A stretch of 64,000 bases of DNA from Streptomyces sp. NBC_01214. GTDB taxonomy: Bacteria > Actinomycetota > Actinomycetes > Streptomycetales > Streptomycetaceae. The stretch is taken from NCBI RefSeq assembly GCF_026340975.1, contig NZ_JAPEOS010000003.1, positions 806,001 to 870,000 of the forward strand, read 5' to 3'. Shown here one piece after another: positions 4,238-63,155 of this stretch. Within the stretch, counting starts at the first letter, position 1, and each line of letters begins with the position of its first letter. The translations under genes were made by a program, and so were the position numbers. The notes under the pieces are model-generated. The model was not told the DNA's origin and ran no database searches. It saw only the letters and a list, made by a program, of their open reading frames with translations.

Positions 4238-4243
4238 CGGTGG

Positions 4244-4333
4244 CTAGAACCTCTCCGGGTACACGAGGGCGAGGACGAGGTATCCGAGCAGGGAGACGGC
4301 CACGATGAGGCCGACGATGTTTTCGGCGTTCAC
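4244..4333 (-). CDS. kdpF: KdpF, small stabilising subunit
   Basis: This is a 29-residue single-span peptide that begins with GTG 4333 (MNAENIVGLIVAVSLLGY) and ends LALVYPERF. The size, the single hydrophobic helix, the terminal YPERF-type ending and the position immediately before kdpA are all characteristic of KdpF, the lipid-like stabiliser of the pump. Its GTG overlaps the stop of the preceding 27-residue reading frame in GTGA, so the two are probably translationally coupled. Confidence 0.9.
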   Translation of the reverse strand: MNAENIVGLIVAVSLLGYLVLALVYPERF

Positions 4334-4413
4334 AGCTTGGTCACCCCTCGGGCGATGAGAGCCACCAGCGCGAAGACCGCGACCGTGGTGACGACGAAGG
4401 CCAGATCGGCCAT
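4330..4413 (-). CDS. 27-residue membrane peptide leading the kdp operon
   Basis: This short reading frame starts at ATG 4413, which follows a good CCAGGAG ribosome site (8-9 bases upstream). It reads MADLAFVVTTVAVFALVALI then ARGVTKL. It is a single hydrophobic helix with a basic tail, like KdpF in style but different in sequence. Its stop overlaps the kdpF start. I know no named family for it. The ribosome site, the tight overlap and the membrane character make it a likely real first gene of the operon, perhaps an accessory stabiliser or a coupling peptide. Confidence 0.7.
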   Translation of the reverse strand: MADLAFVVTTVAVFALVALIARGVTKL

Positions 4414-4467
4414 CGTGAGCTCCTGGATGAAGTGGGAAGAAATGAATCGGCCAGCTGGCCGATGACG

Positions 4468-4496
4468 AGATAACCGTGTCTTCATCCCGGCGTTAA
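4468..4496 (-). promoter_or_regulatory. Putative kdp operon promoter
   Basis: Reading the minus strand, TTAACG (4496-4491) is followed after 17 bases by TTATCT (4473-4468). This resembles a vegetative sigma promoter for the kdp operon, with about 55 bases left to the first ATG. The -35 hexamer lies inside the CGTTAAG/CTTGACG repeat described separately. That is where an activator such as KdpE would be expected. Confidence 0.45.
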
Positions 4497-4540
4497 GACG
4501 CCTTGACGGGGTCCATACGGGCCCAGGGGAACTCTTAACG
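4491..4540. promoter_or_regulatory. CGTYAAG half-site cluster upstream of kdp
   Basis: CGTTAAG (4491-4497) and CTTGACG (4502-4508) form an inverted pair separated by four bases. A further CTTAACG lies at 4534-4540. The same half-site recurs upstream of the other potassium-transport genes at 4744-4783, 6829-6857 and 9256-9273. I infer a shared operator, most simply for KdpE. No Streptomyces KdpE consensus is assumed. Confidence 0.45.
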
Positions 4541-4743
4541 CCGCCCTGACGGAAAGCACCGGAAAGGCCCGGTCAGGCCAGGTGGGACAGCCCCGCCGGG
4601 TCCAGGCCGAGCACGCCTGCGCGGCCGGAAGCGGCTGTAGTGGTCCGCCGCCGACGACCCGCGGCCCGGTCGCTCCGGCCGGCTGGTCGGCGTACTCGGT
4701 CACCGGCCCGCCCGGGAGGGGCAGCCGCGCGCCCCCGCGAGGT

Positions 4744-49198: not shown

Positions 49199-49351
49199 CG
49201 CCGCACTGTGCTGCTCCCCGTCGCCGTGCTGGTGATGCGTACCGATGCACCGACGCCCCGTGGCCACGGGCCGAGGGTGCGGCCGATGGGTAGCATGTGG
49301 TCTACCGTCAACCAGCGGCATCGTACGGCGGATCGGGCAACGGGGGTAATC

Positions 49352-50710
49352 GTGCCGGGAATTCCGGTCGCGGATCTGGTGGTGGTCCTACCCGGCATCA
49401 TGGGCAGCGTCCTGGCCCGGGACGGGCGTGAGGTCTGGAACCACACGCTCGCGGTGGCCGGAAGGCATGCGCTGGGCAGGCTGGGAGAGTTACGGAACCT
49501 GGCGCTGCCGAGCGACATCGGGGACGCCGACCCCGGGGATGGCGTCGAGGCCGTCGGCCTGATCAAGGGGTTGCACGTGTTGCCGGGGGTCTCCGCGATC
49601 GACGGATACGGCCCCCTCCTGGCCTTCCTGGACAAGCGGTTGGGCGTGTCCGAGCGGAACGGCAACCTCCTGCCCTTCCCGTACGACTGGCGGCTCTCGG
49701 TCCGGCTGAACGCGCGCCGGCTCGCCGCCCGGGTGGAGGCTGCCCTGGCGGCTTGGCGCCTCCGCACCGGTGACCCCGCCGCGCGGGCGGTGTTCGTGGC
49801 CCACTCGATGGGCGGCCTGGTGGCCCGCTACTACCTGGATGTGCTGGGCGGCAACCGTCATGCCCGACGCCTCGTCACCATCGGTACCCCCTACCGGGGT
49901 TCGGTGAACGCGCTCACCTCGCTGCACACGGGTGTGGCGCCGGGCCTGGGCCGCCTGTCCGCCCCGTTCACCGGGCTGGCCCGCTCCATGCCCTCGCTGC
50001 ACCAGCTCCTGCCGACCTGGCGGTGCCTGGTCGACCCGGAGGGCCGACGCGTCCCCCTGGGCGGGTCGGTCCGCGTGCCCGGCGTGAACGAGGCACTGGC
50101 CGCCGACGCACTGCACCTGCACGAGGAGCTGGACCGCGTCGCTGCCGGCGGCTACGACCTGCACGTGTTCGGCGGCTACCGCCAGCCCACCTTGCAGTCG
50201 GCGCGGGTCGACGCCGTCGCCCTCGCCGGCCTGCGGGACGTCGACGGCACCGACCACCTCGGTGACGGCACGGTCCCTCGCTTCTCCTGTTTCCCCGCCC
50301 AGTCCACGGACGACTCCACCGTGCGCTTCTTCGCCCAGAAACACGGGGCCCTGCAGAACGAACGGGCGCTCCTCAATCAGCTGGAGGCGCTGCTCACCTC
50401 GCGCGACCCCCGTGAGTTCCTGGACGGGGCCCAGGAGTTGACCGTCGACGTGCCCGAGATCGCCGAGGGGTCGGAGTGTCCCGTGGGCGTGACGGCTGCC
50501 GAGGACCGGCTGCTGCTGTCCGCCACCGTCGAGGACGTCGAGACGGGCCGCTCCTACGGCCCCAAGACCCTGCGCAACCACGGGAGCGGACGCTACGGGA
50601 CGCGTCTGGTCCTACCCGGCCCGGGAACGTGGCGGGTGACCGTGGGCGACCCCGTCAATGCCGGCCGGGTGCACGCGGTGAGCAGCATCGTGCTGGTGGG
50701 ACCGCAGTAG
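49352..50710 (+). CDS. LCAT-type lipase/acyltransferase
   Basis: This 452-residue alpha/beta hydrolase belongs to the lecithin:cholesterol acyltransferase-like group. PGIMGS (14-19) is the oxyanion/lid start, followed by LPFPYDWRLSV, the nucleophile in AHSMGG (Ser152), and TPYRGSVNAL. Asp305 in GDGTVPRFSCFP and His331 in AQKHGALQNE complete the triad. A C-terminal beta-sandwich (about 365-452) follows. GTG 49352 follows GGGGGT; no signal peptide is evident, so it probably acts inside on the membrane. Leu47 is TTA (49490-49492). It is divergent from the caspase-STAND gene across ~153 bases, which suggests joint control and a lipid-attacking effector role. Confidence 0.9.
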   Translation: MPGIPVADLVVVLPGIMGSVLARDGREVWNHTLAVAGRHALGRLGELRNLALPSDIGDADPGDGVEAVGLIKGLHVLPGVSAIDGYGPLLAFLDKRLGVSERNGNLLPFPYDWRLSVRLNARRLAARVEAALAAWRLRTGDPAARAVFVAHSMGGLVARYYLDVLGGNRHARRLVTIGTPYRGSVNALTSLHTGVAPGLGRLSAPFTGLARSMPSLHQLLPTWRCLVDPEGRRVPLGGSVRVPGVNEALAADALHLHEELDRVAAGGYDLHVFGGYRQPTLQSARVDAVALAGLRDVDGTDHLGDGTVPRFSCFPAQSTDDSTVRFFAQKHGALQNERALLNQLEALLTSRDPREFLDGAQELTVDVPEIAEGSECPVGVTAAEDRLLLSATVEDVETGRSYGPKTLRNHGSGRYGTRLVLPGPGTWRVTVGDPVNAGRVHAVSSIVLVGPQ

Positions 50711-51234
50711 GAGGGCGTACGGGCCGTCGCGACCGGTGGGGCCGGGCCGTCAAGGCGGGCCACGGGCCACCTGCTGGGGCTCCCGCGAACGGGGCGTCTG
50801 GGGGCAAGGAACAATGCAGGGCATGGAAGATGCGTTCACACTCCTTCGGCAGGCCGTCGATCTGCTGCCCGAGGACGCCGTCGCAGAGAACGGCCGGACG
50901 GTCGGGGACGTTCGCGAGGACGTCAGGCGCCAAGAGTGGGAGATGGTGCTCGGCGTTCTCGAAGAGATCGGGGACGTCCATCCCGTGTCCGTGGACTTCT
51001 GGGAGCTCCTCGCCGAAGCCGCTCGGCAGATGATGCTCGACCGCAGTCACCGTTGGTGTCAGTGGCGGGGCTGGGAAGTCCAGCACGGCACTGTCCGGGC
51101 CACCTTGAGTTTGATGGATCCGCAGGAGGGCGGACGTCGCACCGCATTTTCCGGGGACGGGCGGCTCAGGCCGATGTGGGACATCGGCAATCGCACCACG
51201 GACGGAGAACGAGAGCTCAACATCGCAAGGCTAT

Positions 51235-52133
51235 GAGCTCGTAACACGATCATGAGGTGGGCTTGTTGAGGCGTCGCCAACAGATGAGGCTGCAAGCGAG
51301 GGAGACAAACGCGTCGTGGAGCTCGGTGCGCCGTTCCCACCGGACGGCGAGTCGTTTGAACTGGTGGAGCAGGGCGAAGGTCTGTTCCACGACGTAGCGG
51401 AGCTTGCCCATGCCCTTGATGTTCGGGGATCCCTTGCGGGAGATGACGGGCAGGATCCGGCGTTTACGCAGCTCATCACGGTTGGCGTTGGAGTCGTAGC
51501 CCTTGTCCCCGAGCAGAGCATCGGGACGTCGGCGGGGCCGGCCGGGGCGGCCCGCCACCGGTGGGATGCCGTCGACCAGGGCGAGAGTCTGGGTGACGTC
51601 ATTGACGTTCGCCGCAGTCGTGATGACTTTGAGCGGAGTGCCGCGTCCGTCGCAGATCAGGTGGTGTTTGCTGCCTGTCTTCCGCCGGTCGACCGGCGAC
51701 GGACCGGTGTCGGCTCCCCCTTTTTCGCACGGATGTGGGAGCCGTCCACGCAGGCCCTGGACCAGTCGAGCCGGCCGGCCGCATTCAACTCGGCGAGCAG
51801 GATCCGATGCAGCTGGTCGAAGACCCCGGCCTGCTGCCACCGCTCCAGGCGCCGCCAGCAGGTCTGCCCGGACCCGAATCCCAGCTCAGGTGGTAGGAGT
51901 TGCCAGGCGATGTCGTTGCAGAGCACGTACAGGATGCCTTGCAGACACAACCGGTCAGCTACCGGCCGCGGCCCTGGTGACCTCGTCGGCCAGGGCGGCA
52001 GCAGCGGCTCGATCAGTGCCCACAAGTCGTCGTCCACGATCCACGGCCGAGTACTCACACCACCACGAACGGCTGAATCGTCACACCGGTCACGGCTGAC
52101 CAGGACATCTCATCAAGATCGTGTTACGAGCTC
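51235..52133 (-). mobile_element. IS5-type insertion sequence, about 0.9 kb
   Basis: The element is bounded by perfect 17-base inverted repeats GAGCTCGTAACACGATC (51235-51251) and its complement (52117-52133). It is flanked by TAT direct repeats (51232-51234, 52134-52136). It carries one transposase spread over two frames on the minus strand. The clean ends and intact flanking gene reading frame indicate a fairly recent insertion. Confidence 0.92.
51250..52058 (-). CDS. IS5-family transposase made by programmed frameshift
   Basis: Frame 1 (from GTG 52058) reads MSTRPWIVDDDLWALIEPLL, DUF4096-type binding domain, up to CVDGSHIRAKKGEPT. Frame 2 continues from the same point through HHLICDGRGTPLKVITTAA and LLGDKGYDSNANRDELRKR to SLICWRRLNKPTS. 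The overlap holds A5G5 on the coding strand (complement at 51716-51725), a slippery run that would shift ribosomes. DDE aspartates lie in VDGSH and GDKGYD. This two-frame layout is usual for IS427-group elements. Confidence 0.88.
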
Positions 52134-52482
52134 TATGGGTGGAGTACGAGCAGCAGCTCGGCCCCGGGGAGACAGCCGACGTTCGCCTGGCTCCCCTGCG
52201 GCCCGAGCAGTGGCGCCATCTGAAGCCCGGTGACGTGATCTTCATGCACGAAGCCCGACCCGTCGCCGGCATCGCCGAGATCACCGAAGTCCTGCCGCCC
52301 CGCGCATGAGGCCAATAGGGCCAGATGCGTGACAGGCCGCGTTGAACGTGCATTTCAGGACTCGGTGGAAACGGACTGACGTCCAGGCGGGAGCAACGGG
52401 ATGTTTTGCCCGAAGTTCTAGATGACTGCGATGCCCGATATTGCACTCACGTCTCCTCAGCTGTGACGTCTACTGTGAGCCG

Positions 52483-53298
52483 ATGAGTGAGGAATTGAAT
52501 CCGCAGGTGTTCTCGAACCGCTGGGCTGACGCCGTCGGGCCCAGCGGCCAGGGTTCACCTCGCGATTTCTGCGGGTGCATCGAACACGGCACCGGGACGC
52601 AGCTACCGACCGTTTTCCATCCGGAACGTCAGGACACCACCGCACCAGGATGGATCCGCCTCCTCGAGCTGGTGGAGGAGGCGGCAGCCGACGGACGGGA
52701 AGTCTTCAAGCCGCTGGTGGAGCTCACGGCGGAACAGCGGCGCCAGGTCATCACGCTCCCGCCGACCATCTCCAAACTCACCTCGGTGAAACACCTCGTG
52801 CTGTACGGCAGCAACCTGGTGCGCATCCCGCCTGAGATCGGCGCGATGAAGAGCCTTGAGGAGTTCACCCCGTACACCTCCCACCGTTTGCACTGGTTCC
52901 CTTACGAGATCACCCGGTGCCTCGACCTGCGGCGCAGCACGGTGAGCACCCGTGCCGTCTACGGCAATTTCAAGCGACGGCCCCCGTTCCCGGCGCTGTC
53001 GGCCGCGGCGGCGACCGGGCTCCAAGGGGTTGACCTCGAAGACCTCGACCCTGGCGTATGGGGTGCCGCAGCGATCCGCACGTGCAGCGTCTGCGACCAG
53101 CACATCCAGGGCGTGAACCTCCGCCAGGTCTGGATCTCCCTATGGACGTCGGGCGCTGACGTCCTGCCCTTGCTGGTCAACGCCTGTTCGACGGCTTGCA
53201 TCGACGCGCTGCCCATGTCGGCCGAAGGCTACGTCCAGATGCCGCACACCGGCGGGCCAAGCGTGAGCCAGCCGTCAGCTGGCCGACGTCCTCACTAA
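52483..53298 (+). CDS. Leucine-rich-repeat-like protein with Cys-rich tail
   Basis: This 271-residue protein starts at ATG 52483 (MSEELNPQVFSNRWADAVGP). A short LRR-like segment lies about 95-140 (ITLPPTISKLTSVKHLVLYG then IPPEIGAMKSLEEF). The C-terminal part has TCSVCDQHIQG and NACSTACIDALP, two Cys pairs that may hold zinc. The ribosome site is weak. Similar LRR proteins in Streptomyces are annotated as hypothetical. It may be an immunity or surface-recognition protein; no partner toxin is visible. Confidence 0.7.
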   Translation: MSEELNPQVFSNRWADAVGPSGQGSPRDFCGCIEHGTGTQLPTVFHPERQDTTAPGWIRLLELVEEAAADGREVFKPLVELTAEQRRQVITLPPTISKLTSVKHLVLYGSNLVRIPPEIGAMKSLEEFTPYTSHRLHWFPYEITRCLDLRRSTVSTRAVYGNFKRRPPFPALSAAAATGLQGVDLEDLDPGVWGAAAIRTCSVCDQHIQGVNLRQVWISLWTSGADVLPLLVNACSTACIDALPMSAEGYVQMPHTGGPSVSQPSAGRRPH

Positions 53299-53328
53299 CG
53301 CGGAGCGGCTCCCGAAGAAGCACGTAGT

Positions 53329-55494
53329 TCAGAGAACAGACGCCAGCGCGGCGCGCAGCTGTTCGTCCTCGCGGATCATCGCGTGGTCGGACCCGGAGAC
53401 GACCAAGCGGCGGTCCCCGGTGGCGAGCGCGGCCAGCCGGTCGTGCTGCTCCGGCGTCAGGGCGGCGGCGCCGAGCGCCAGCAGGGCGTCGCAGGCGCCC
53501 TTGAGGTCGGCGCGGGTCTCGGCCGAGCGCAGCGCCGCCTCGGCGAGCCGGGTGCGGTCGAGGTCCGCGGGATCGGCGACGGCGAGCAGCCCGAGGACGG
53601 CCGACGGTGCTTGGGCCGGGTCGTCGAGGAGAGCTTGGAGCCGGGCGGTCAGCGGGCGCCCGGCCGGGCCGAGCACGGCGATCTCGCGAGCGGCGCGGGC
53701 GGCCGTCCAGTGGAACCACTGCCGGCCCTCGCTCCTGTCGAACACCGAGGCCAGCACCGGGACGACCTCGGCCGCCTCACCGGCGATCCGCCACAGGGCG
53801 AGCGCCAGGGCGAGGTCCGTGTCCACCTCCGGCGTGGTGTCGCGGTCGGTGGTGCGGCCGAGTGCCGTCCGCAGGGCCGGGGTGAGGTGGGCGGCCGCCG
53901 GGCCGAGGTCGGCCAAGGCGCGGGCGCCCTCGACGCCACCGCGCGCACCGGCGGCGAGCGCCGCCTCGGCGGCGGCGAACAGCGGCCCGGTCTCGCCGGT
54001 CAGCTCGTGCAGTGCCTGCGCCACGAACAGCTTCCGGGCGCCGGCCCGCAGGGCGGTGGCGGCCAGCTCGCGCTGCTCCGGCCCGGTGCCGGCGGCGACG
54101 GCGGCGATTGCGGTGGCGGCGTACGGGAAGCGGGGCAGGACGGCGCACAGTTCGGGCAGCGCCTCGACGGCCTGCGGGCCCCATTGCCGCAGCAGGTGGA
54201 CCAGCCCGGCGCTGTCGTTGTGGTCCTCGGTCGTCGAGCAACCGCAGTCCCCGCACCCCTCGGGACGCTCCAGCGCCTTGGCGGCCAGGCGAGCGCGGAC
54301 CGCGGCGAACAGTTCCGGGTCGAACGGGAAGGGGGCATCGGCCGCGGCGTGGGACCCGGGGGCGCACTGCATGGCGCGCGGGCGCCGGTCGAGGGACCGG
54401 GCCAGCAGCGGGGCGGCGGCCCGCGGCGCCACCAGGACGAGTGCGGCGAGGGCCTGGTCGGCCGCCTCGTCGTCCGGCTGCGCGGCGAGTTCGGCGAGGA
54501 CCGGAGCGGCCTCGGCGGCGGCCGGGCCGATCTTGCCCAGCAGCTGGGCGGCCGCCCAGTCGGCGGCGAGCGGGGCGATCGCGGGGACCAGTCGCTGCGG
54601 GGCGCTGCGGGACAGGGTGCAGGCGCGGTCGGCCGCCCAGAGAGCCTCGGCCCGCACTTCGGGGCGCTCGTCACGCAGTGCGGCGTCGAGCAGCGCGAGG
54701 GCACTCTCGCGGTCGGCGTCGGTGTTCCGCCCCAGCAGGATCCCGACGATGGTGCGCAGCGGCTCCCGGTGCTCGTCCGCGTAGCCGGACCCGGCCGTCT
54801 CGCGCGCGGGCAACAGCCCGAGGACGGCGTCGCGGTGCGCGGCGAGCCACGGCTCCCCGGCGTCCAACGCGGCGAACACGGCGGCCAGGCGCAGCGGCGC
54901 GGGCGTGTCCGGGCCGAGCAGGGCGCGGGCCTCGGCGACGGCGCCCGCGGGGTCCAACCGGCGGTACGCGGTGAGGAGTTCGGCCCGGACGGCGGGCTCG
55001 GTCTCGGTGGCCAGGCGGGACCGGACGGCGGGCAGGGCGGTGCAGGTGTCCCGGGTGTGGCCGACCGTCCAGCCGGCCACCTGCCGGACGGCGGGGTCCT
55101 CATCGGCCAGCAGCGATATGAGCAGCGGCAGCTGGGCGGTTACGGCGGCCCGGACGGCGCCCGGCTCGACGTCGTACTCGTCCTCGCTCTCGGCGAGGCA
55201 GCCGAGCAGCCGGAGCGCGTCTGCGACCTGCCGGCCGGAGGCGGCGATTCGGGCGAGGTACGGGGCGGCGTCGACGCTGGCCGCGTACACGGTGCCCTGG
55301 TGCACGATCGAGCCGTACAGCTCGTGCAGTGCCTCCTCGGCGTCCTCACCGCCCTCGGCGAAGGTGCGCAACAACCCGGGCAGGTCCTCGGCGGGGCCGT
55401 AGGCGTGGTGGACGGTGGCCCAGGGGTGGGCGTCGAGCCCGGCGAGGGCGGTGGGGAGCTCCATGGCCGTGATCTTCGCAGGGACCTCCGACAT
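53329..55494 (-). CDS. HEAT-repeat protein
   Basis: This 721-residue soluble protein consists almost entirely of alpha-helical HEAT-like repeats, e.g. LISLLADEDPAVRQVAGWTV, ALLDAALRDERPEVRAEALW and PLTARLQALLDDPAQAPSAV. A Cys cluster (GCGDCGCSTTEDHND) interrupts the middle near residue 410 and could bind metal. It starts at ATG 55494 or at ATG 55464; neither has a strong site. HEAT arrays act as protein scaffolds. No partner is identifiable from the neighbours. Confidence 0.85.
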   Translation of the reverse strand: MSEVPAKITAMELPTALAGLDAHPWATVHHAYGPAEDLPGLLRTFAEGGEDAEEALHELYGSIVHQGTVYAASVDAAPYLARIAASGRQVADALRLLGCLAESEDEYDVEPGAVRAAVTAQLPLLISLLADEDPAVRQVAGWTVGHTRDTCTALPAVRSRLATETEPAVRAELLTAYRRLDPAGAVAEARALLGPDTPAPLRLAAVFAALDAGEPWLAAHRDAVLGLLPARETAGSGYADEHREPLRTIVGILLGRNTDADRESALALLDAALRDERPEVRAEALWAADRACTLSRSAPQRLVPAIAPLAADWAAAQLLGKIGPAAAEAAPVLAELAAQPDDEAADQALAALVLVAPRAAAPLLARSLDRRPRAMQCAPGSHAAADAPFPFDPELFAAVRARLAAKALERPEGCGDCGCSTTEDHNDSAGLVHLLRQWGPQAVEALPELCAVLPRFPYAATAIAAVAAGTGPEQRELAATALRAGARKLFVAQALHELTGETGPLFAAAEAALAAGARGGVEGARALADLGPAAAHLTPALRTALGRTTDRDTTPEVDTDLALALALWRIAGEAAEVVPVLASVFDRSEGRQWFHWTAARAAREIAVLGPAGRPLTARLQALLDDPAQAPSAVLGLLAVADPADLDRTRLAEAALRSAETRADLKGACDALLALGAAALTPEQHDRLAALATGDRRLVVSGSDHAMIREDEQLRAALASVL

Positions 55495-55972
55495 CCGCTC
55501 AGAACAGGTGCCGCAGACAGGCCGACAGGCCCCGGGCCGTTCGAGGAAGCGGCGCCAGTGGTCGACGGGTTCGACGTCCTGCCAGGGGGTACTGGGCTAC
55601 GTCTCCCGAGCACGCGCCCGGCCCCGCAGCGGGCTGATGCCGACGGCCGCTTCGGCCACGGCCTGATGTTCGGTATGGCCGACCACATGGTCCGCGCGAG
55701 GTTGTGCCTCGTGGAGGAGACCAGGCCGGGCGACACGGTCCTCGACGGCGCGGTCTTCGGCCCGCAGCCCGTGTTCGAGGACACCGCGTTGCAGGTCCTC
55801 GCGCGTGCGGCAGCGTCGGCTCCGCATCCGGCGTGGCTCACGCGCCGGCCGCCGCTCACGGCATCGGCGATGAGCTCACGGCGGAGGCGACCTGAGAACA
55901 GGGGTGGGGGAGGGGCCTCGTGCTGGCTTCGCTGCCGTGGCTGGTGCGAGAAGCGTGTCCGGATCATTTCCG
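55495..55972. other. Gap with an unidentified coding-like remnant
   Basis: On the plus strand, about 55654-55850 reads GHGLMFGMADHMVRARLCLV and VLDGAVFGPQPVFEDTALQV with coding-like third positions. It has no proper start or end and I recognise no family. The rest of the gap shows nothing. It is likely debris upstream of the aspS leader. Confidence 0.4.
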
Positions 55973-56002
55973 TTGTGCCGAACCTGACCGTGTACCTATC
56001 CT
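55973..56002 (+). promoter_or_regulatory. Putative promoter of the T-box/aspS transcript
   Basis: TTGTGC (55973-55978) and TATCCT (55997-56002) are separated by 18 bases, a fair vegetative-type promoter. A start near 56008-56010 would place the T-box stem I at the very 5' end of the RNA, as expected. Confidence 0.5.
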
Positions 56003-56016
56003 CATCTCAACGCGTC

Positions 56017-56269
56017 GACGGAGACGAGTAGCCAGGGATCACGCGAGCAGAGAGAGCCGCCGGTAGCTGTGAAGGCGGACTCGTGCCCCATGGTGAAGAC
56101 CCTCCCGAGCGCGGGGAGGAAAGGCCCCCGGGCCCAATGCCCCGCCGGTTCGCCCCCGTCATCGGGCTGAACGAGGCCGCCGCTTTCTGGCGGTGGCAAA
56201 GGCGTGGTGGCACCGCGAGTACCCTTCTCGCCCACGCTTCCAAGGGATCATGACGACGCCCCTGGAGGG
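56017..56269 (+). promoter_or_regulatory. T-box leader controlling aspartyl-tRNA synthetase
   Basis: The leader has the T-box landmarks in order: a GACGAGTA stem I start (about 56023-56030), the AGAGAGCC bulge (about 56051-56058) and the stem I return strand ending GGACTCGTG. In that strand GAC (56078-56080), an Asp codon, sits directly before TCGT. The antiterminator is exact: GCGTGG (56202-56207) pairs with CCACGC (56232-56237), GCGAG (56215-56219) pairs with CTCGC (56227-56231), and the seven-base bulge between is TGGCACC (56208-56214). The variable base is C, which pairs with the G discriminator of tRNA-Asp or tRNA-Asn. No terminator run precedes the start, so it probably acts on translation by masking GGAGGG (56264-56269). 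Confidence 0.85.
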
Positions 56270-56274
56270 CTGAG

Positions 56275-57591
56275 ATGATCCACACGACCAGCCGCGTACT
56301 GGTTTCCGACCTACGCGCACACGTCGACCAGACCGTGACCGTCTCCGGCTGGGTGAACGCACTTCGGCTGCAGCGCACGATGCAGTTCGTCATCCTGCGG
56401 GACCACTCCGGCATGGTCCAGGTGACCCACAAGCGCGACGGCGGCCCGCTCGAAGCCGTCATCGAGTCGCTCACCCCCGAGTCCGCCGTCCGGATCACCG
56501 GCCGTGTCGTAGCGACGCCCCAGGTCAAGCTGGGTGGCCTGGAGCTCGTCCCCGAGTCGGTCGAGGTGCTGAACCGGGCGGAGACGCCCCTGCCGATCGA
56601 CGAGCGCACCGGCCCCGAGCACCGGCTCGACTGGCGGTTCCTCGACGTGCGCAAGCGCGCCGCCGCGCAACTGGTGTTCGCCGTGCAGACGACCCTGGAG
56701 CAGGGGCTGCGCGAGTACGCCGTGCGACACGGCTGCACGGAGATGCACACGCCGAAGCTGATGGGCACCGCCTCGGAGTCCGGCGCGGAGGTGTTCAAGC
56801 TCGGATACTTCGACCGCTCGGCCTATCTCGCGCAGTCGCCGCAGTTCTACAAGCAGATGGCCGTGGCCGCCGGCATCGACCGGGTCTTTGAGATCGGTCC
56901 CGTCTTCCGGGCCGAGCCGTCGTACACCTCGCGGCATGCGACCGAGTTCACCGGCGTGGACGTCGAGCTGTCGTGGATCGACGACGTCGAGGACGTGATG
57001 GTCTTCGAGGAGCGGATGCTCGCCCACGCCATCGCGAAGGTCGCCGAGGTCCACGGCGAGGCGATCCGGGAGGTCTTCGGCATCGAGGTCGTGGTGCCGG
57101 AGGCTCCGTTCCCCAGGATCACGATGGCCGAGGCGCAGGAGATCCTGCGGGCCGGCGGCTGGGACCCCGAGGGCGTCAAGGAGGACCTGGACCCGGAGGG
57201 CGAACGGGCCATCGGCGCCCACATGAAGGAGCTCACGGGCCACGAGTTCGTGTTCGTCACGCACTACCCGGCCAGCATCCGGCCCTTCTACCACATGCGT
57301 CCGGCGGACCGGCCGGACCTGACGCTCAGCTTCGACCTGCTCTGGAAGGGCCTGGAGATCACTACCGGGGCCCAGCGTGAGCACCGCTCCGACGTGCTGC
57401 TCAAGCAGGCCGAGGAGAAGGGCATGGACACCGAGCCGATGCAGGACTACATGAACATCTTCCGCTTCGGCTGCCCGCCCCACGGCGGCCTCGGCGCTGG
57501 CCTGGGCCGGATCCTGATGGTCATGCTCGGCCTGGACTCCATCCGCGAGGCCTCGTTCCTGTTCCGCGGCCCGAACCGCCTCACCCCCTGA
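56275..57591 (+). CDS. aspS: Archaeal-type aspartyl-tRNA synthetase
   Basis: This 438-residue class II synthetase charges tRNA with aspartate. It has an N-terminal OB-fold (VTVSGWVNALRLQRTMQFVI), motif 2 region RVFEIGPVFRAEPSYTSRHA and motif 3 GLGAGLGRILMVMLGL. It lacks the bacterial GAD insertion and is much shorter than the usual ~590-residue bacterial enzyme, so it belongs to the archaeal/eukaryote-like group, which may also charge tRNA-Asn. ATG 56275 follows GGAGGG. Its T-box leader implies induction when the cognate tRNA is uncharged. As Streptomyces normally carry a bacterial aspS elsewhere, this is probably a second, conditionally used or resistance-type enzyme. Confidence 0.95.
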   Translation: MIHTTSRVLVSDLRAHVDQTVTVSGWVNALRLQRTMQFVILRDHSGMVQVTHKRDGGPLEAVIESLTPESAVRITGRVVATPQVKLGGLELVPESVEVLNRAETPLPIDERTGPEHRLDWRFLDVRKRAAAQLVFAVQTTLEQGLREYAVRHGCTEMHTPKLMGTASESGAEVFKLGYFDRSAYLAQSPQFYKQMAVAAGIDRVFEIGPVFRAEPSYTSRHATEFTGVDVELSWIDDVEDVMVFEERMLAHAIAKVAEVHGEAIREVFGIEVVVPEAPFPRITMAEAQEILRAGGWDPEGVKEDLDPEGERAIGAHMKELTGHEFVFVTHYPASIRPFYHMRPADRPDLTLSFDLLWKGLEITTGAQREHRSDVLLKQAEEKGMDTEPMQDYMNIFRFGCPPHGGLGAGLGRILMVMLGLDSIREASFLFRGPNRLTP

Positions 57592-58019
57592 GCCAGGGGG
57601 CAACAGGGACGGCGCCGTGCGCGGTGCGGCCAGGGCCGAGGGCCCACCGGGTTCGGCCTGCCCGGCACTACTGCGGTGGGGGTCAGCCCCGACGCCCCCC
57701 GGCCGCGTGCCCGCCCGTACCTCCGCGCCCCGCGATCACAGGCCAGCGCTCATCCTTCCGTCCCGGCCCTCCACGTCCGCACGCCGCTCCTGCTGGACGC
57801 GGTCCGCGAGCGCCGGGACGGCAAGCCCGTTGCCCACCGCGTTGCGGCGTCCAGCCCCGGGGGCCCCGGGCCCCGGTCCGCCCGGTCGACGAGATCCGCA
57901 TGAGCCGGCGCCCACCGCTGGATCTGCGGGCCGCGAGCGTGTCGCCGCACCAGCGGACCATGGCCTCCGAACGGGGTCCGGAACCCGTACCAGGAACCCG
58001 TACCCGGAGGCCAGGGCGG
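57592..58019. other. 428-base gap without a convincing gene
   Basis: No frame with a start, ribosome site and consistent third-position G/C is present. Only short proline/arginine-rich readings occur, typical of random GC-rich DNA. A GC-only run (GGGGGCCCCGGGCCCC, about 57859-57874) could form hairpins, but no clear terminator follows aspS. Confidence 0.5.
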
Positions 58020-58247
58020 TCAGATGGCCTCCTGGCGCTCGGGCGCCTTCCGCGTCTTCATCCCGCCGACGATGAGCGCCAGCCCCACGACGACGACGCC
58101 GAGGTAAGCGGTGGACGGAAGGTCGACGACCTTGTGCATCCAGCCCCACTCCGTGCCGAAGAAGGTCTGCGAAGCGAAGCTGATGAGCCCCTGGGCTCCT
58201 ACGACGTAGCCGATGCTTTCGATGGTGTATCCGATGGTTGTTCGCAC
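58020..58247 (-). CDS. 75-residue two-helix membrane protein
   Basis: This small protein starts at GTG 58247 after GAGAGGG. It reads MRTTIGYTIESIGYVVGAQG, then a Trp-containing loop (FFGTEWGWMHKVVDLPSTAY), a second helix LGVVVVGLALIVGG and a basic tail. Two membrane segments are clear. I recognise no family. It is a single gene. Confidence 0.65.
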   Translation of the reverse strand: MRTTIGYTIESIGYVVGAQGLISFASQTFFGTEWGWMHKVVDLPSTAYLGVVVVGLALIVGGMKTRKAPERQEAI

Positions 58248-58358
58248 GGATCAACCCTCTCGCGGCGGCGCCACGAGATCGTCCTCCACAGGACCGAAAT
58301 CACAGTAGGCCAAAGGATGCAGTCGCCGTTGTGGCGCATCGCGTCAGCAGCGTTGGCG

Positions 58359-58874
58359 TCAGATGCTGCCGAAGGGTTCGGGGTAGATGAACTCGCCTTG
58401 CACGGAAGGGTCGTAGGCGGCCAGGGTGCGGATCTGGAACAGGTGCTCCCAGGCCGGATCCTCGCCGACGATGCCGAAGTCAGTGCTCGGGCGGAAGCCG
58501 AACCGCCCGTAGAAGTCGGGGTCGCCGAGGACAACGACCATCGGGGCGTCGAGGGCGTCCGCCGCAGCGAGAGCGGCGTGGACCAGGGCCGTTCCGAAGC
58601 CGCGGCGGCGATGGTCGCAGTGAACACCGAGCAGGCTGAGGTTGGGGACTCGGGCGGTACCGATTCGGCCCCAGGTGCACAGAGCGTGGCCGATGACCGC
58701 GCCGTCTTCGTCCTCGGCCACCAGCGAGAGTGCTGGGATCCAGCTTTCACCCTTTTGCAGTGCGTCCCGCAGCATCACCTCCACAGGTTCCTCCTCGTGC
58801 GGTTTGTAGGAGGAGGCGATGGTCACCGCACGGACAGCGGCCAGGTCGGCGGGGGTTTCGCGTCTGATCAGCAC
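58359..58874 (-). CDS. GNAT-family N-acetyltransferase, YhbS-like
   Basis: This 171-residue acetyltransferase starts at GTG 58874 (MLIRRETPADLAAVRAVTIA). The acetyl-CoA loop is RRRGFGTALVHAALAAADAL, preceded by the beta strand NLSLLGVHCDH. LGDPDFYGRFGFRPSTDFGI is the YhbS hallmark. An upstream extension to 58979 has no site and poor composition. The acceptor is unknown. Confidence 0.85.
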   Translation of the reverse strand: MLIRRETPADLAAVRAVTIASSYKPHEEEPVEVMLRDALQKGESWIPALSLVAEDEDGAVIGHALCTWGRIGTARVPNLSLLGVHCDHRRRGFGTALVHAALAAADALDAPMVVVLGDPDFYGRFGFRPSTDFGIVGEDPAWEHLFQIRTLAAYDPSVQGEFIYPEPFGSI

Positions 58875-59337
58875 CGACGTAGTGTGGCCCTCCGGCCGAC
58901 CTGGTGTGCGTGCGGGGGCCGTCACGGAGAACGGTGCGCCAGCTCGTGCCGGTGCGGGCCGGCCCGCATCAGCACCCAAGCCCAGGTGGAGGCGTCGTAC
59001 GCCTGGGGCAACGCGTACCGGCGCGTCGGGCTCGTACCCGCCGCCGAGTCGTGGGCCTCGATGCGGAAGTCAGGCTCCTCGCGCACTGCCGATGGCCACG
59101 AGGCTCTGCACCATCGAGTCGGTCACCGGCCTCCACCGCATGGGGGAGGCCGACCTCATTCTCCGGCTGGAAGTCTCCGACCGCACCGTCCTTCGACGAT
59201 CGACGTCATGAGACAAGTGACGCAGCAGGAGCCTCAGATGACGGCGACTGCGGTCGACGCATCCATGGCGCTCGGCGGCGGCGGAACACCCGGACGTCAC
59301 TCCCACGGCCGGTCCGAAGACCGAGAAGGCGTGAACG
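58875..59337. other. Gap with fragments only
   Basis: On the plus strand about 58980-59065 reads VEASYAWGNAYRRVGLVPAA, the tail of an unidentified protein without a beginning. A 39-codon frame from ATG 59092 (MATRLCTIESVTGLHRMGEA) lacks a ribosome site. Neither is likely functional. Confidence 0.4.
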
Positions 59338-59926
59338 GTGCTCAGGTACGGTGCCGTCGTCGCCACGCTGCCGTATCGGCTCTTCAAGGTCATCTGGGTC
59401 TGCGGCGGCGGCCTCGGCATCATGGACCGCGAAATGGCCCAGCGTTCAACCCTGTTCGTGGCGAACCTGGCGACGCTGGGGACGGCCGGGGTAGCCCTGC
59501 TCATCGCGCTTGACTTCACCCACGGCTGGCGGCGGCCGTCACCGCCGTCCACGGCGCCCGGGCGGCCGCCGCGATCGGCCTCCCCCTTCCGTCCACCGCG
59601 TCCCCCGTCGCGCCCCCCGACTGGCTCCTGGTCGCCCTGACCTGGCTCGGCGGCGGCACGATGCTCGCCCGGGGCTGTTGGGCGTTGATCACCATGGGCC
59701 AGTTCCACCCCGACGCCACCCTCGGCGACAACGGAACCACCGTGGGCGTCCAGGCCTCCCAGATGGAGATCGTGGCCGGCATGCTCGTCGGCACGAGCGG
59801 CGCCCACCTCCTGGCCGCTTTCAACCCGATCTCCCGGGGCCACCGTTCGCGGGGCCCGCGGCCAGCGCGGGCCCCTCCCTCGACCCCGACGGGGAACCGG
59901 GGAACGGCGAGCGTCCCCAGGCCTGA
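59338..59926 (+). pseudogene. Membrane protein gene with two frame changes
   Basis: GTG 59338, eight bases after GAAGG, opens MLRYGAVVATLPYRLFKVIW and ALLIALDFTHGW. Around 59527 the coding signal moves to another frame (AAVTAVHGARAAAAIGLPLP, LVALTWLGGGTMLARGCWAL, GQFHPDATLGDNG). Near 59840 it moves again (GPAASAGPSLDPDGEPGNGE) to a TGA at 59924-59926. The three pieces join into a ~195-residue protein with about four helices. Either it is a decayed gene or the sequence has two indel errors. Confidence 0.6.
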
Positions 59927-59940
59927 GCAGCGGGAGTTAC

Positions 59941-60040
59941 TGAGCCTTTTCAGAGTGGCCACTGATCGGGTGACTCGGGTCGAGTCAGGTTGAGGACCGC
60001 AACGCACAGGGCTCCCGCGCCGTTGAAAGAGGTGTTCGAA
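59941..60040 (+). repeat. Left 100-nt inverted arm
   Basis: It starts TGAGCCTTTTCAGAGTGGCC and ends GAGGTGTTCGAA. Its reverse complement also encodes an open tail ([20 protein letters not shown]) that ends in a stop, as does the right arm in its orientation. Confidence 0.85.
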
Positions 60041-60098
60041 CTACAGTAGGTGAGCCCGTTTGGTGGGATAGCGAATCCGTGCAGAGAGGCAGCGGGGA

Positions 60099-60641
60099 AT
60101 GAGTGTGGTGGAGAGCTGGTCCCGCGTAATGAATCTCCTCCGGGAGTATGCTCCGGCCGATCACGCGGACCTGCCCGGCCCGGCCCCGGAGCGGATGCTC
60201 GCGGCCGCCGAGGAGCGCATGAGTCTCTCATTGCCTCAGGACCTGCGCGTGTGGCTGCTGCAGAACAACCTGGATCTCCCCGAGGACGATGTGGACGACG
60301 ACGTCGCCTGCTGCGGTTACGCCGGGTTCCCGGACGAGGCGAGCTTCTTTCTGGGCATCCGGGCGATGGAGAAGCTCCACGCCAACCACCCCTTGTCCGG
60401 TGGGGACGAATGGCGCGATGAGTGGATCCCGTTCCTGTCGGATCAGGATGCCTGGACGGGGCGGTTCATCGATGTGACGGACGGACGTATCGGCAGATGG
60501 TTCGTGGGTGAGCCCACGACCACCGGCCAGTACCCGTCACTGGCCCACTACTTCGACTCCGTGGCGGAGATGCTGACGAGGATCGGCGCGGGGGACTATC
60601 CGGTCTGTTCCGTTGCCGAAGGGCGACTTGTCTGGTCGTGA
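60099..60641 (+). CDS. SMI1/KNR4-family protein
   Basis: This 180-residue acidic protein has the SMI1/KNR4 (SUKH) outline: MLAAAEERMSLSLPQDLRVW for the early LP.DL..WL motif, a middle GFPDEASFFLGI, then DEWIPFLSDQD and GRIGRWFVGEPTTTGQYPSL, ending with a helix (FDSVAEMLTRIGAGDY). SUKH proteins are often immunity proteins against polymorphic toxins. It lies between inverted mobile arms, with its own terminator, so it may travel with the element. Confidence 0.88.
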   Translation: MSVVESWSRVMNLLREYAPADHADLPGPAPERMLAAAEERMSLSLPQDLRVWLLQNNLDLPEDDVDDDVACCGYAGFPDEASFFLGIRAMEKLHANHPLSGGDEWRDEWIPFLSDQDAWTGRFIDVTDGRIGRWFVGEPTTTGQYPSLAHYFDSVAEMLTRIGAGDYPVCSVAEGRLVWS

Positions 60642-60660
60642 GGCCCCGTGGCCGTGAACG

Positions 60661-60699
60661 GAAGTGCCCCCGGAACCGAAGAACGGTCGGGGGCACTTC
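60661..60699 (+). terminator. Terminator after SMI1/KNR4 gene
   Basis: GAAGTGCCCCCG (60661-60672) pairs perfectly with CGGGGGCACTTC (60688-60699) across a 15-base loop. It starts 20 bases after the SMI1/KNR4 stop. Confidence 0.85.
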
Positions 60700-60759
60700 T
60701 CATGATCTGGTTGCGGCGTGGGAGCGGTGAATCCGTCGAGGTCGACCCAGTGGGGATTT

Positions 60760-61476
60760 TCAGCGTTGACGCTCCAGAGTGAGGACGGCGGCGGCGATGG
60801 CCGTCATGCGGTTGGGGCTGCAGCGGGCTTTGCGGAAGATGCGCCAGGACTTGAGTTGCGCGACGCTTCGTTCGACGGGTGCCCGCGCCGCTGACAGGGC
60901 CCGGTTGATCGTCTGCTGGGTCGTGGTCAGGTCCCGGTTCGGGAGCCGTATGAACGGTGTGGTCACCCAGGGGCCGGCCCCGATGTAGGCACGGTCGGCG
61001 AGGACGGGGACGCCCTGGCGTTCGCAGATCCGGATGATGCGGTGGGTGCGGGCGGCGGTCAGGTCGTGGGTGCGGCCGGGCAGTGCGGGTGAGATCCACA
61101 GCAGGTCGCCCGCGGGATCGGCCACGACTTGCACGTTCACTCCGTGACGGCGGTGCTTCTGGGAGAAGCCGGCCCGGCTGTCGCCGACCCGGTCGCACTC
61201 GGCGAGCGTCCCGTCGAGCAGGACGTAGTCCGGATCGGCCTCGCGCAGGACCCGCAGGAGGCCGGGTGCCCGGCCGGACAGGTGCTGGACGACGGCCGTC
61301 ACGTAGGCGTGGGCGGTGCCGACGGATATGCCGAAGCCGGCGGCGATCTGCGCGAGCGTGTCGTGCCGGCGGAGGTGGACCAGGCCCACAAGGTCACGCT
61401 GATGGGGCGGCAGCTTGCAGCGGCGGTCACCCTCACGGGTGACGATGAGCATGGATACCCACTCGAACCAGAGCAT
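60760..61476 (-). CDS. DDE transposase (IS5/DDE_Tnp_4 type), probably N-terminally shifted
   Basis: This 238-residue frame from ATG 61476 has the N-terminal HTH_4-like part [20 protein letters not shown] and [20 protein letters not shown]. The DDE_Tnp_4 catalytic domain follows with [43 protein letters not shown] and [16 protein letters not shown]. Just upstream, another frame reads AALDLPHAL. Joined to [19 protein letters not shown], that matches the normal N-terminus, so one base has been gained or lost near 61470. The enzyme may be inactive or start late. Confidence 0.85.
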
Positions 61477-61538
61477 GAGGCAGGTCGAGCGCGGCAGGAT
61501 GGGGAACCAACAGGGCTCCTGTGCCGATGGGTTGAGAC

Positions 61539-61638
61539 TTCGAACACCTCCCTCAACGGCGCGGGAGCCCTGTGCGTTGCGATCCTCATCCTGACTCGGC
61601 CTGGGTCACTCGACCAGTGGCCACTCTGAAAGAGCTCA
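61539..61638 (-). repeat. Right 100-nt inverted arm
   Basis: This is the reverse complement of the left arm at 59941-60040 with about 11 differences. It lies 60 bases upstream of the transposase start, where an IS end would be expected. Confidence 0.85.
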
Positions 61639-62405
61639 CTGTCAGTTGGGGAACGTTTGGATGAAATATGTCCGGCGGCCCGTGCTCTTCATCTTCACAA
61701 CTCGGACGAGGTTTCCGGCCGAGCGAAATATGAGAGGCCGGACGGGGAGTATTTCGGCCAGTGCTCGGCTTATGGTCGCGCGGTGGTTGGCGAAATTTAA
61801 CACCCGCGGGTGACTTGAAAGAATGTAGGCGCACTGGGTCCGTACCGTCGAGCGGTGCGAGATCGGCCGAAATGCGCGGTTTGGTGGTAGTTCGCCAGCA
61901 ATGCACCGAAGTGTCGCCGGTATCGGGGTCGTTGTTCGCGCTGGAGGGCCCTTCTGGGCGGCGTGTGACGTCTTGCCGCTTGGGCGTGGCAGGTGAGGAC
62001 CAGCCACTTTCGGGGGCTCGGGTGACCACTACCGGCCACTCCCGTGACGGTCTGTAATGAATTTGATTCGTTTGGTTATTGAAAGTGATAAGGGGAAGTC
62101 TTGCTTCCGGGGAGTGGTGCAGCTAGCTGACAGGGGGTGTTTAAACTGGAAGGCAATGCAGGCGGCGCCGAATTGTTGAATTTGGGACGGTCTTGCGGGT
62201 CAATGTTTTGTTGACTGGCTCGATCGTTGCAAACTACTGTCGGTTGGGCCCTGGTGGGCCATCGCTTGTTGACGTCAAGAGTGTGCCCGTCAAGTTTTAG
62301 CGGAACGTTGTCGTGGGACGGCTGATGCAGGTCTCGACCGGAGCGTGTACGGCCTGGATTGACGAGGGAGCGCAAGTGCCAACTGTGGTCGGGGGTCCAC
62401 AAGAA
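61639..62405. other. Lower-GC leader of the tandem regulators
   Basis: This 767-base stretch is visibly richer in A/T than the rest of the window, especially 62055-62320, and shows no gene on either strand. A putative promoter lies at 62211-62240. TTGACGTCAAGA (about 62270) and CCGTCAAG (62288-62295) repeat a GTCAAG half-site between promoter and gene. Foreign origin or a long regulatory region is likely. Confidence 0.55.
62211..62240 (+). promoter_or_regulatory. Putative promoter of the first regulator
   Basis: TTGACT (62211-62216) and TACTGT (62235-62240) with an 18-base spacer resemble a vegetative promoter. It would give a ~160-base leader before ATG 62406. Confidence 0.5.
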
Positions 62406-63155
62406 ATGAAGAAGGTACCGGAGGGGGCGGATGATGATCATGCTGAACACCTGGAGCGGGCGCTGTTACAGGCCCGCGAACTGATCGAATCCACCGTCTC
62501 CCTGAACAGGCGCCGCCCCGTCGCGCCGTCAGCAGTGGTGCGTACCGATGTCGCGATGCTTGGCGAAGCCCTGGAGCGGCACATCGGTCGTGCCCGGTAC
62601 TCGGTCAGCGTGGCGCGAACGGGCACCGGTGAGTTCGCCGACGCCGTGATGAGATCACTCCCCGCGATCCCATCCCGTGTGGCAGTGCGAGTGCTGTGTA
62701 CGGATGAGTCGTCGGATCCCGCCCTGGCCCGGTACGCCCAGATGTCCAATACTCGGGTGGAAGTTCGGGTTTCGGAAAGTGAACTGCGCGAGATCCTGGT
62801 CGTCGACAGCACTGAGGCACTCGTGCGCGCGGCGGGTAATGCAGCTGCGCCCGCCACCGTTGTGGACGACGCCGCTGCCGCGCGCGCCCTGGGACTGCTC
62901 TTCGCTGGCGTCTGGGCCCGGGGTCGTAGCCTCGACGAGCATCTACAAATGCGTCCGCGCCTGCGGACGGAACTGGCCCGGAACATCCTTGAGCAGCTCG
63001 GTTCGGGCAGCAGCGACGAAGCCGCCGCCAATGAGCTCAATGTTTCCCTGCGGACGTACCGCCGCTATGTAGCGGAAATCATGCGGGAACTCGATGCGAA
63101 CTCCAGGTTCCAGGCCGGCGCGCGTGCGGTGGAACTGGGCCTGCTCTCGGCGTAG
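62406..63155 (+). CDS. Transcriptional regulator with TrmB/PLD-like sensor and LuxR-type HTH
   Basis: This 249-residue protein starts at ATG 62406 (MKKVPEGADDDHAEHLERAL), nine bases after GGGGGT; GTG 62376 is the alternative. A coiled N-terminus leads into a PLD-like sensor (ALERHIGRARYSVSVARTGT, VAVRVLCTDESSDPALARYA). The C-terminal helix-turn-helix is SDEAAANELNVSLRTYRRYV then AEIMRELDANSRFQAG. Leu21 is TTA (62466-62468). Such regulators often head specialised-metabolite clusters. A close paralogue follows 104 bases downstream. Confidence 0.8.
   Translation: MKKVPEGADDDHAEHLERALLQARELIESTVSLNRRRPVAPSAVVRTDVAMLGEALERHIGRARYSVSVARTGTGEFADAVMRSLPAIPSRVAVRVLCTDESSDPALARYAQMSNTRVEVRVSESELREILVVDSTEALVRAAGNAAAPATVVDDAAAARALGLLFAGVWARGRSLDEHLQMRPRLRTELARNILEQLGSGSSDEAAANELNVSLRTYRRYVAEIMRELDANSRFQAGARAVELGLLSA

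Follow-up and report, generated by a model that had tools for sequence, protein, structure and literature searches.

T-box leaders that act on translation have been described before ileS in Actinobacteria (PMC1262725), and 32 T-boxes have been reported from 19 actinobacterial genomes (PMC2494555). Herein we describe a T-box leader that is located upstream of aspS2, a gene for a second aspartyl-tRNA synthetase (AspRS), in a 64,000-nucleotide window of Streptomyces sp. NBC_01214 (NZ_JAPEOS010000003.1, 806001-870000; genome size 10.07 Mb). Positions given without a contig name are those of the window, and L, G, C and f numbers are our handles for loci, genomes, contigs and families. We judge the element to be a real Asp-specific T-box in front of a reserve AspRS, and a member of an actinobacterial set that includes Ser-specific sisters; its action is probably translational. 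No Asp or Ser T-box in Actinobacteria was found in the open-licence literature among the matches listed, as judged from titles and the beginnings of abstracts.

The ileS T-boxes, of which Mycobacterium and Nocardia structures are treated in PMC7583486, resemble the aspS2 leader in the T-box core, in the lack of a terminator and in the sequestration, predicted for aspS2, of the Shine-Dalgarno (SD) sequence (PMC1262725). An earlier sequence-only reading of this locus had taken actinobacterial T-boxes to be mostly of this translational ileS kind, in agreement with both sources. However, the aspS2 leader carries an Asp rather than an Ile specifier, UGGC rather than UGGU in its bulge, and a long Stem I with the apical double T-loop motif that contacts the tRNA elbow (IDTM). 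Furthermore, aspS2-type leaders mostly combine a start-codon hairpin with a helix formed by the antiterminator loop, whereas the genome's own ileS leader reads as one in which the 3' strand of antiterminator helix A1 is anti-SD.

Saad, in 2012, is said to have linked the T-box AspRS of Clostridium acetobutylicum to GatCAB and Asn. In contrast to this aspS2-gatCAB Asn T-box, the specifier here is GAC, and no gatCAB was recognised near the gene; what the loci share is a T-box before one of several AspRS genes (PMC4206432, PMC2494555). The lysK leader of Bacillus cereus (PMC2916919) is likewise a T-box on a second, archaeal-class synthetase in a two-synthetase species, although the amino acid there is lysine and the organism a Bacillus, whereas here we are dealing with Asp and an apparently translational element. 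Second, divergent synthetases are also found in Streptomyces as TrpRS1 (indolmycin) and as SerRS2 of albomycin producers, and are reviewed together with antibiotic resistance in PMC9437257, whose available text mentions no T-box for those two enzymes; the enzyme here is an AspRS. Extra AspRS genes have been reported from 15 genera outside Deinococcus-Thermus, 10 of them without AsnRS, primarily Actinomycetales (PMC4206432), and thus a second AspRS in Actinomycetales is already known. Asp-type T-boxes in the TBDB database share the Asp specifier (PMC7778990) and the UGGN core with the aspS2 leader, which differs in lying under the Rfam cut-off. Given that the class II model of TBDB was run on reference genomes of Actinobacteria (PMC7778990), some of the leaders described below may already be included there.

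A complete T-box leader precedes aspS2

A covariance search of 371 bases matched RF00230 at 56006-56238 over the whole model (1-219 of 219) with 72.3 bits and an E value of 5.9e-16, and the same match was recovered in a genome-wide search of 10.07 Mb (E 3.8e-15). The score is below the RF00230 gathering score of 93, and therefore a default Rfam scan of the window at the gathering threshold reports no T-box. Thirteen relatives were scanned in the same manner; eight match at E<=0.001, every one of them below 93, and no match at E<=0.001 was obtained for L150, L152, L155, L156 and L157 (L151 and L153 are outside that scan). The genome contains one further match (C5:2257717-2257954, 64.1 bits), which lies upstream of ileS, a gene recognised by TIGR00392 with 569.9 bits for a 525-aa fragment, under the full-length cut-off of 621.4.

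Taken as a whole, the leader does not fold more stably than shuffled sequences do (z 0.13), and thus the evidence for a T-box is the covariance model together with conservation. Helix A1 is 100% paired across 62 distinct related sequences, and three of its seven pairs have changed on both sides; for A2, the paired fraction is 98.7%. Between these helices lies the 7-nt bulge UGGNACC, here UGGCACC, and the apical double T-loop (AGAGA, UGxRA) is present, as sequence motifs only, in Stem I, which at 56012-56110 is long and places the leader outside the ultrashort-Stem-I, ileS-like class. On this basis, we regard the identity of 56006-56238 as a complete T-box leader as well supported and, at the level of sequence, confirmed. 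The end of the leader is separated by 36 nt from the AspRS start codon. The features of the locus are as follows.

55997..56002, + strand: TATCCT, a weak -10-like hexamer (TATNCT there in 20 of 25 aligned leaders, by eye)
56006..56238, + strand: T-box leader, whole RF00230 match (covariance match)
56012..56110, + strand: long Stem I with S-turn AGUA (56027-56030) and GAA (56095-56097) (covariance match, alignment)
56051..56055, + strand: AGAGA, first T-loop of the IDTM (consensus from PMC7583486)
56068..56072, + strand: UGUGA, second T-loop (UGxRA) of the IDTM (consensus from PMC7583486)
56098..56100, + strand: specifier codon GAC (Asp), right after the S-turn GAA (covariance alignment, leader comparison)
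56111..56174, + strand: Stem II and Stem IIA/B region (covariance alignment, conservation)
56175..56197, + strand: Stem III, 8 pairs with compensatory changes at five
56201..56207, + strand: antiterminator A1 5' strand, partner 56232-56238 (pairing in 62 sequences)
56208..56214, + strand: T-box bulge UGGCACC, of which UGGC can pair with the tRNA end G73-CCA (covariance match, tRNA acceptor stems)
56215..56219, + strand: antiterminator A2 5' strand, partner 56227-56231 (pairing in 62 sequences)
56222..56226, + strand: CCCUU in the A2 loop, complementary to AAGGG at 56242-56246 (pairing in 62 sequences)
56242..56246, + strand: AAGGG, partner of the A2 loop, its last two G shared with the start-codon stem (alignment)
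56245..56251, + strand: GGAUCAU, start-codon stem 5' strand, partner AUGAUCC at 56275-56281 (RNAalifold, alignment)
56258..56270, + strand: SD hairpin GCCC-CUGGA-GGGC, GUCC..GGAC in others (aligned pair UA in 14, CG in 10, unpaired in 1)
56264..56269, + strand: SD sequence GGAGGG (sequence)
56275..57591, + strand: aspS2, archaeal-type AspRS without GAD domain, 438 aa (open reading frame, profiles, PDB matches)

A consensus scan gave no sigma-70 promoter.

The sequence-only reading had placed an Asp-type T-box and its gene at 56017-57591, with an antiterminator that folds exactly and that a covariance-model search should be able to recover. The antiterminator, the full-model match and the pairing of the element with its gene have all held, whereas the start was set too late, as the T-box begins about 10 nt upstream. 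Its interpretation overall is partly supported.

The specifier and the bulge point to tRNA-Asp

The RF00230 alignment sets GAC against the model letters uuc and skips a single base of the model between GAA and the codon, and therefore an independent check of the specifier position was needed. We compared 89 long-stem leaders, one of them that of the window: 87 have GAC as the triplet, and one, which precedes serS, has UCC; in the remaining leader (L027), whose Stem I region is unalignable, no triplet was found. A second set of 20 further regions, of which two (L246 and L251) failed the specifier pattern, yielded 16 UCC leaders, all 16 followed by SerRS, and seven GAC leaders, of which six are followed by AspRS (five of these genes are also represented in the 89) and one is an orphan. 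The GAC/AspRS and UCC/SerRS sets agree, and thus the specifier codon changes together with the gene. Other frames for the specifier (ACC or ACA, Thr) are ruled out, because the two sets fix the column. The GAC specifier that had been predicted is thereby placed, and no other codon came to occupy the specifier loop, although the alignment to the Rfam model taken alone is imperfect at this point.

The 89 leaders comprise 83 distinct sequences, and 62 distinct sequences enter the platform alignment, from which L147 was left out. The set omits L008 (a near-duplicate of the window), L137 and L138 (repeats) and L185, as well as L131 and L180, for which the pattern was not found (the genome of L131, G367, has a T-box by the R1 model introduced below). 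It also omits L150-L153 and L155-L157, which are ultrashort, short or divergent, and L154, in which no bulge was found. When 56 of 80 loci of AspRS2 relatives were tested for the bulge, 24 were positive.

Acceptor stems read by eye from part of the 71 tRNA matches of the window genome show G73 in a tRNA-Asp gene and in two tRNA-Asn genes, and A73 in tRNA-Ile. The C of the UGGCACC bulge is complementary to G73 of tRNA-Asp, as had been proposed for tRNA-Asp/Asn from the bulge alone. G73 was also read by eye in all 21 tRNA-Asp genes of 13 genomes, among them seven with U or A as the bulge letter. This C is not universal, given that the fourth bulge letter is C, U and A in 69, 16 and 4 of the 89 leaders, respectively. 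A UGGA bulge occurs in L023, L041, L135 and L136, and in both of the corresponding genomes that were checked (G240 and G279) tRNA-Asp has G73, such that A stands opposite G. Both tRNA-Asp genes of the window genome (L186 and L199) have a G2-U71 acceptor pair and a D-loop unlike those of the other 12 genomes, as read by eye.

The genome encodes two types of AspRS

The 438-aa product of aspS2 (AspRS2) matches NF003483 with 474.3 bits (cut-off 353) and TIGR00458 with 385 bits (cut-off 368). Both models are titled aspartate--tRNA(Asn) ligase, which is a model name only and implies no activity. A full-length match to GAD-type AspRS is absent, as TIGR00459 matches partially with 170.8 bits against a cut-off of 373.85, and the best PDB sequence matches are the archaeal-type AspRS chains 3nel, 1b8a and 1n9w, aligned through the FRAE and GLGR segments. 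A second AspRS, of the GAD type, is encoded at C5:229448-231181 (598.8 bits). Thus, the profiles agree with the sequence-only reading, which had described AspRS2 as an archaeal-type enzyme lacking GAD that stands beside a GAD-type AspRS. GatB is encoded on a contig other than that of aspS2, no AsnRS above the profile cut-off was found in the genome, and tRNA-Asn starts with U1-A72 (by eye), which is the pair needed by GatCAB (PMC4206432). Given these three observations, AspRS activity probably also feeds the formation of Asn-tRNA.

The leader is conserved with AspRS2 and has serine-specific sisters

AspRS2 was detected at E<=1e-150 in 33 of 392 genomes of the genus, at 35 places. A covariance model built from the 3' part of 25 leaders (R1) matches 46 of 392 genomes of the genus, in a draw of equal size that contains all 33 AspRS2 genomes. 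A T-box is located directly upstream of AspRS2 at 35 of the 35 places: 34 lie within 20 nt of the start of the match, and one is extrapolated (G288), where the AspRS2 match begins at residue 129 and the R1 match sits where the gene should start. Thirteen genomes have an R1 match without AspRS2, and nine of these represent UCC leaders before serS, one (G020) has an AspRS of another lineage behind GAC, and two (G296 and G353) failed the specifier pattern; G319 contains an orphan GAC leader (L243, C23) that is followed by no AspRS match. Eight AspRS2 genomes contain a second R1 match, at a distance from the aspS2 leader of 2.7-3.0 kb in six genomes, 7.0 kb in one and 14.6 kb in one, and the six second leaders that were read are all UCC leaders before serS. 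This paired synthetase neighbourhood, with UCC/UGGCACC and serS near aspS2, is seen at L237-L242 (G117, G240, G040, G388, G326 and G365), and in G169 and G279 by position only.

Outside the genus, where stricter filters lose weak matches, R1 was found in at least 21 of 394 genomes of the class and at least 61 of 200 of family f17 (once each), and, counting the window genome, in at least three of 296 drawn from the phylum. Among 18 genomes tested, a GAD-type AspRS above the cut-off is present in all 18, and an archaeal-type AspRS stands behind the T-box in 15 (seven of the 18 were profile-checked besides the window); in G336, the T-box precedes serS. In G674, a seemingly ultrashort Asp-type T-box (L157, C1:1354905-1355025) lies directly before the GAD-type AspRS itself. 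The AspRS match behind R1 in G398 (L154, C895) is split into 303-500 and 3783-4721, more than 3 kb apart, and the gene may be interrupted or misassembled.

By eye, L150-L153 and L157 look ultrashort, with a tiny Stem I whose apical loop contains UGAC, and in L150-L153 the A1 3' strand is complementary to the SD. Stem I thus seems to occur in the Asp leaders in a long and an ultrashort form, and both lengths have been described for T-boxes (PMC7583486). A weak R1 match, L185 (G1104:C9), is followed by what appears by eye to be a GC-rich hairpin and a short T-run, and is perhaps a transcriptional T-box of other specificity. Integration at tRNA genes was also considered and gave no case, as ARAGORN reported tRNA genes in only two of 29 loci.

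The expression platform probably acts on translation initiation

No terminator-like site was found in 55900-56400. RNAalifold places the SD and the AUG in one hairpin, and GGAUCA/UGAUCC is present in 25 of 25 leaders, wherein the inner SD hairpin shows UA-to-CG exchanges. Over the 62 sequences, the start-codon stem is 99.2% paired (six of its seven pairs were counted), with one-sided changes only; by eye, the stem is kept with other letters (GCGUUGC/GCAACGC, GGACAG/CUGUCC) in L146, L149 and L148. It is formed in 19 of 25 single-sequence minimum-energy folds that include 40 nt of coding sequence. With no terminator-like site and with SD and start codon predicted to be sequestered, the platform is probably translational.

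A second helix can form between CCCUU in the A2 loop and AAGGG, which mostly lies 3-4 nt after A1. This loop helix is 100% paired in the 62 sequences, with changes on both sides in two of five pairs, and occurs in the variants CCCUG/CAGGG, CCCG/CGGG and CCCU/AGGG, as well as in GCCC/GGGC-like form in L151-L153 and L157 (by eye). Automatic placement of A2 was wrong in several leaders (e.g. L139, L143 and L184), in whose alignment CCCUU and AAGGG are visible. In either form of the OFF state considered below, the loop helix would take the G-tract from the hairpin, and therefore we place it in the ON state. A T-box platform of that kind was not found described in the portions of the literature searched.

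The OFF state may be either the local start-codon hairpin, which we consider most likely, or a classical sequestrator formed by the A1 strand. In the window, the anti-SD candidate of the A1 3' strand is CUUCC at 56237-56241, which could pair with GGAGG and looks weak from the window alone. An OFF state formed by the Stem II 5' strand with the A1/A2 3' strand was rejected, given that it appears in one of seven folds (L139) and its letters do not covary across relatives.

Proposed mechanism

We consider it likely that the element is a long-Stem-I tRNA-Asp T-box that controls translation of a reserve AspRS and is induced when tRNA-Asp is uncharged. Within this proposal, we infer in which direction the switch works, which OFF hairpin is used, where the loop helix belongs and what triggers the switch physiologically. 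In the OFF state, the SD and AUG of aspS2 would be held in a hairpin, most likely the local GGAUCAU...AUGAUCC hairpin with its inner SD hairpin, and in some relatives perhaps a longer one wherein the A1 3' strand pairs with the SD. In the ON state, the anticodon of uncharged tRNA-Asp would pair with GAC and its G73-CCA end with UGGC, such that the antiterminator (here an antisequestrator) is locked. The SD would then be freed, and the CCCUU loop could capture AAGGG and take GG from the start-codon stem. AspRS2 would be made when the GAD-type enzyme (AspRS1) fails to keep tRNA-Asp charged, as might result from a shortage of aspartate or from a weak or inhibited AspRS1. We hold this way of switching with moderate confidence.

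Several observations weigh against parts of this proposal. The bulge letter is U or A in the 16 and four leaders noted above, yet tRNA-Asp has G73 in the seven such genomes checked; U can wobble with G73, whereas A cannot, which leaves the four A leaders unexplained. The base after the specifier is C in 72 of the 89 leaders, and not the purine that is usual in T-boxes (PMC7583486). In the alignment, no compensatory change supports the start-codon stem, a control with shuffled sequences gives no information on it (500 of 500), and the loop helix was not found in L155 and L156. Moreover, the antiterminator and the start-codon hairpin do not overlap, and 15 of 25 folds contain both, and therefore a switch in those leaders would rest on the loop helix alone. 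Six of the 25 folds (L009, L010, L011, L015, L023 and L041) instead have the SD region paired with the A1 3' strand and the linker, and AAGGG with a downstream partner, and this arrangement is a classical, mutually exclusive sequestrator. Finally, if ideal A-form geometry is assumed, a linker of 3 nt is too short to bridge all 12 bp beneath the loop helix, and about two A1 pairs must open.

Alternative explanations

The same T-box could instead act by transcription attenuation, either through a GC-rich hairpin without a U-run or through Rho, which we consider unlikely. The combination of a long Stem I and IDTM is typical of transcriptional T-boxes, with few translational examples having it (PMC7583486), and the downstream hairpin is GC-rich. 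However, that hairpin holds the start codon in the 25 aligned leaders, its surroundings lack a terminator-like site, and actinobacterial ileS T-boxes are described as translational (PMC1262725). We give little credence to a response that involves tRNA-Asn rather than tRNA-Asp only, even though tRNA-Asn has G73 and U1-A72, GatB is present with no AsnRS over the cut-off, and GAC could pair with the tRNA-Asn anticodon GUU by way of one G-U pair. There is also precedent in the B. cereus lysK T-box, located on a class I LysRS, which answers to both tRNA-Lys and tRNA-Asn (PMC2916919), and the C. acetobutylicum case mentioned above (cited in PMC4206432) points the same way. Nevertheless, the specifier among the 89 leaders is GAC in 87 and never AAC, and GatB lies on another contig. 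That the element is a decayed, non-functional T-box before an acquired gene would be in keeping with its score under the Rfam cut-off and with the orphan leader of G319, but a T-box is retained at all 35 AspRS2 places, and compensatory changes are seen in Stem III, in the loop helix and in both antiterminator helices (A1 and A2), which makes decay highly improbable.

A further hypothesis, already raised in the sequence-only reading and compatible with translational control by tRNA-Asp, holds that AspRS2 confers resistance or self-resistance to an antibiotic that targets AspRS, and that the T-box serves to induce it. Induced second synthetases against inhibitors of TrpRS and SerRS are described in Streptomyces (PMC9437257), AspRS2 is sporadic in the genus, and the eight AspRS2 genomes with a second leader have it within 15 kb, before serS in the six that were read. 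In addition, T-box-less relatives of AspRS2 in Salinispora and Actinokineospora lie beside MFS/ABC-2 transporters or biosynthesis-like enzymes. On the other side, a Pfam scan of 10 reading frames in 49046-63155, aspS2 included, gave no sign of a biosynthetic cluster and no recognised biosynthetic gene, and a T-box fires on any loss of tRNA-Asp charging. We regard a role in resistance as possible, though on balance somewhat doubtful.

Two AspRS lineages share similar leaders

In a tree of 88 proteins, from which L047 and L069 were dropped as broken reads and some loci of AspRS2 relatives were left out, the T-box-linked AspRS enzymes fall into two groups (lineages A and B) with 100/100 support and long branches. 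The nearest named relatives of the AspRS2 of the window are from Streptomyces. Protein identity across the lineages is 38-44% (seven pairs), and leader identity is 81-90% over 205-242 nt (eight pairs), with 88% for a leader pair within a lineage. These high values across lineages concern the leaders of Streptomyces and most of those of f17. When lineage-A leaders of f37 and f9 are compared with those of lineage B, identity is only 72-78%, and for L148 it is 82%; in this comparison the leader bounds were incorrect for several rows. The nearest relatives of the window group without the T-box pattern are from Kitasatospora, Streptomyces sp. FH025, Salinispora and Pseudonocardiales, where absence means that the sequence pattern is missing within 450 nt upstream. 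A label test gives at least two changes of T-box presence, a figure that is biased, as the T-box model itself had served to find the lineage-A rows.

A free leader tree mixes both AspRS lineages; a tree that keeps them apart is not rejected (approximately unbiased (AU) test, p 0.377), and therefore we claim shared, similar leaders and not a proven tree conflict. The simplest reading of these comparisons is that the leader has moved, or that one AspRS has replaced another behind it. We tentatively extend this to a 'reserve synthetase slot', a proposal for which we would not claim even chances. One tRNA-sensing leader, as the conserved unit, would stand before non-orthologous AspRS genes (~40% identical, with leaders up to 90%) and, with UCC, before SerRS genes, some of them ~3 kb away, and its platform would be an antiterminator loop that captures the G-tract of the start-codon hairpin.

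Gene neighbourhoods

The neighbourhoods of aspS2 differ in Streptomyces and Wenjunlia and include accessory-looking genes, such as GNAT and radical SAM genes at L012, an amino acid permease gene at L016, and a type I restriction R subunit with a tyrosine integrase at L020. In the window, an IS5-family-like transposase gene lies at 60760-61476, ~3 kb downstream of aspS2. An open reading frame at 52441-53298 has a weak match (E 1.4e-5) to the XopAC/XopAE models of leucine-rich type III effectors, which is far under their cut-offs and probably reflects the repeat only. The T-box-less aspS2 relatives L028 and L030 are perhaps in biosynthetic clusters. The Salinispora relative without a T-box adjoins MFS and ABC-2 transporters, and that of Actinokineospora adjoins a thiamine pyrophosphate (TPP) enzyme, a ferritin-like protein, an Orn/Lys/Arg decarboxylase and an aminoglycoside-kinase-like gene.

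Implications

The leaders described herein extend the actinobacterial T-boxes beyond ileS to Asp and Ser, and neither in the window genome nor in any of the 13 relatives scanned does the element reach the Rfam cut-off. Where Ser and Asp leaders share one neighbourhood, their specificities can be compared in a natural setting, and the loop helix provides a concrete alternative to a plain anti-SD platform. If the leader is a switch that responds to uncharged tRNA-Asp, the role of the spare AspRS would be directly testable, and the system would indicate that soil bacteria meet conditions, or natural inhibitors, by which AspRS or SerRS is disarmed.

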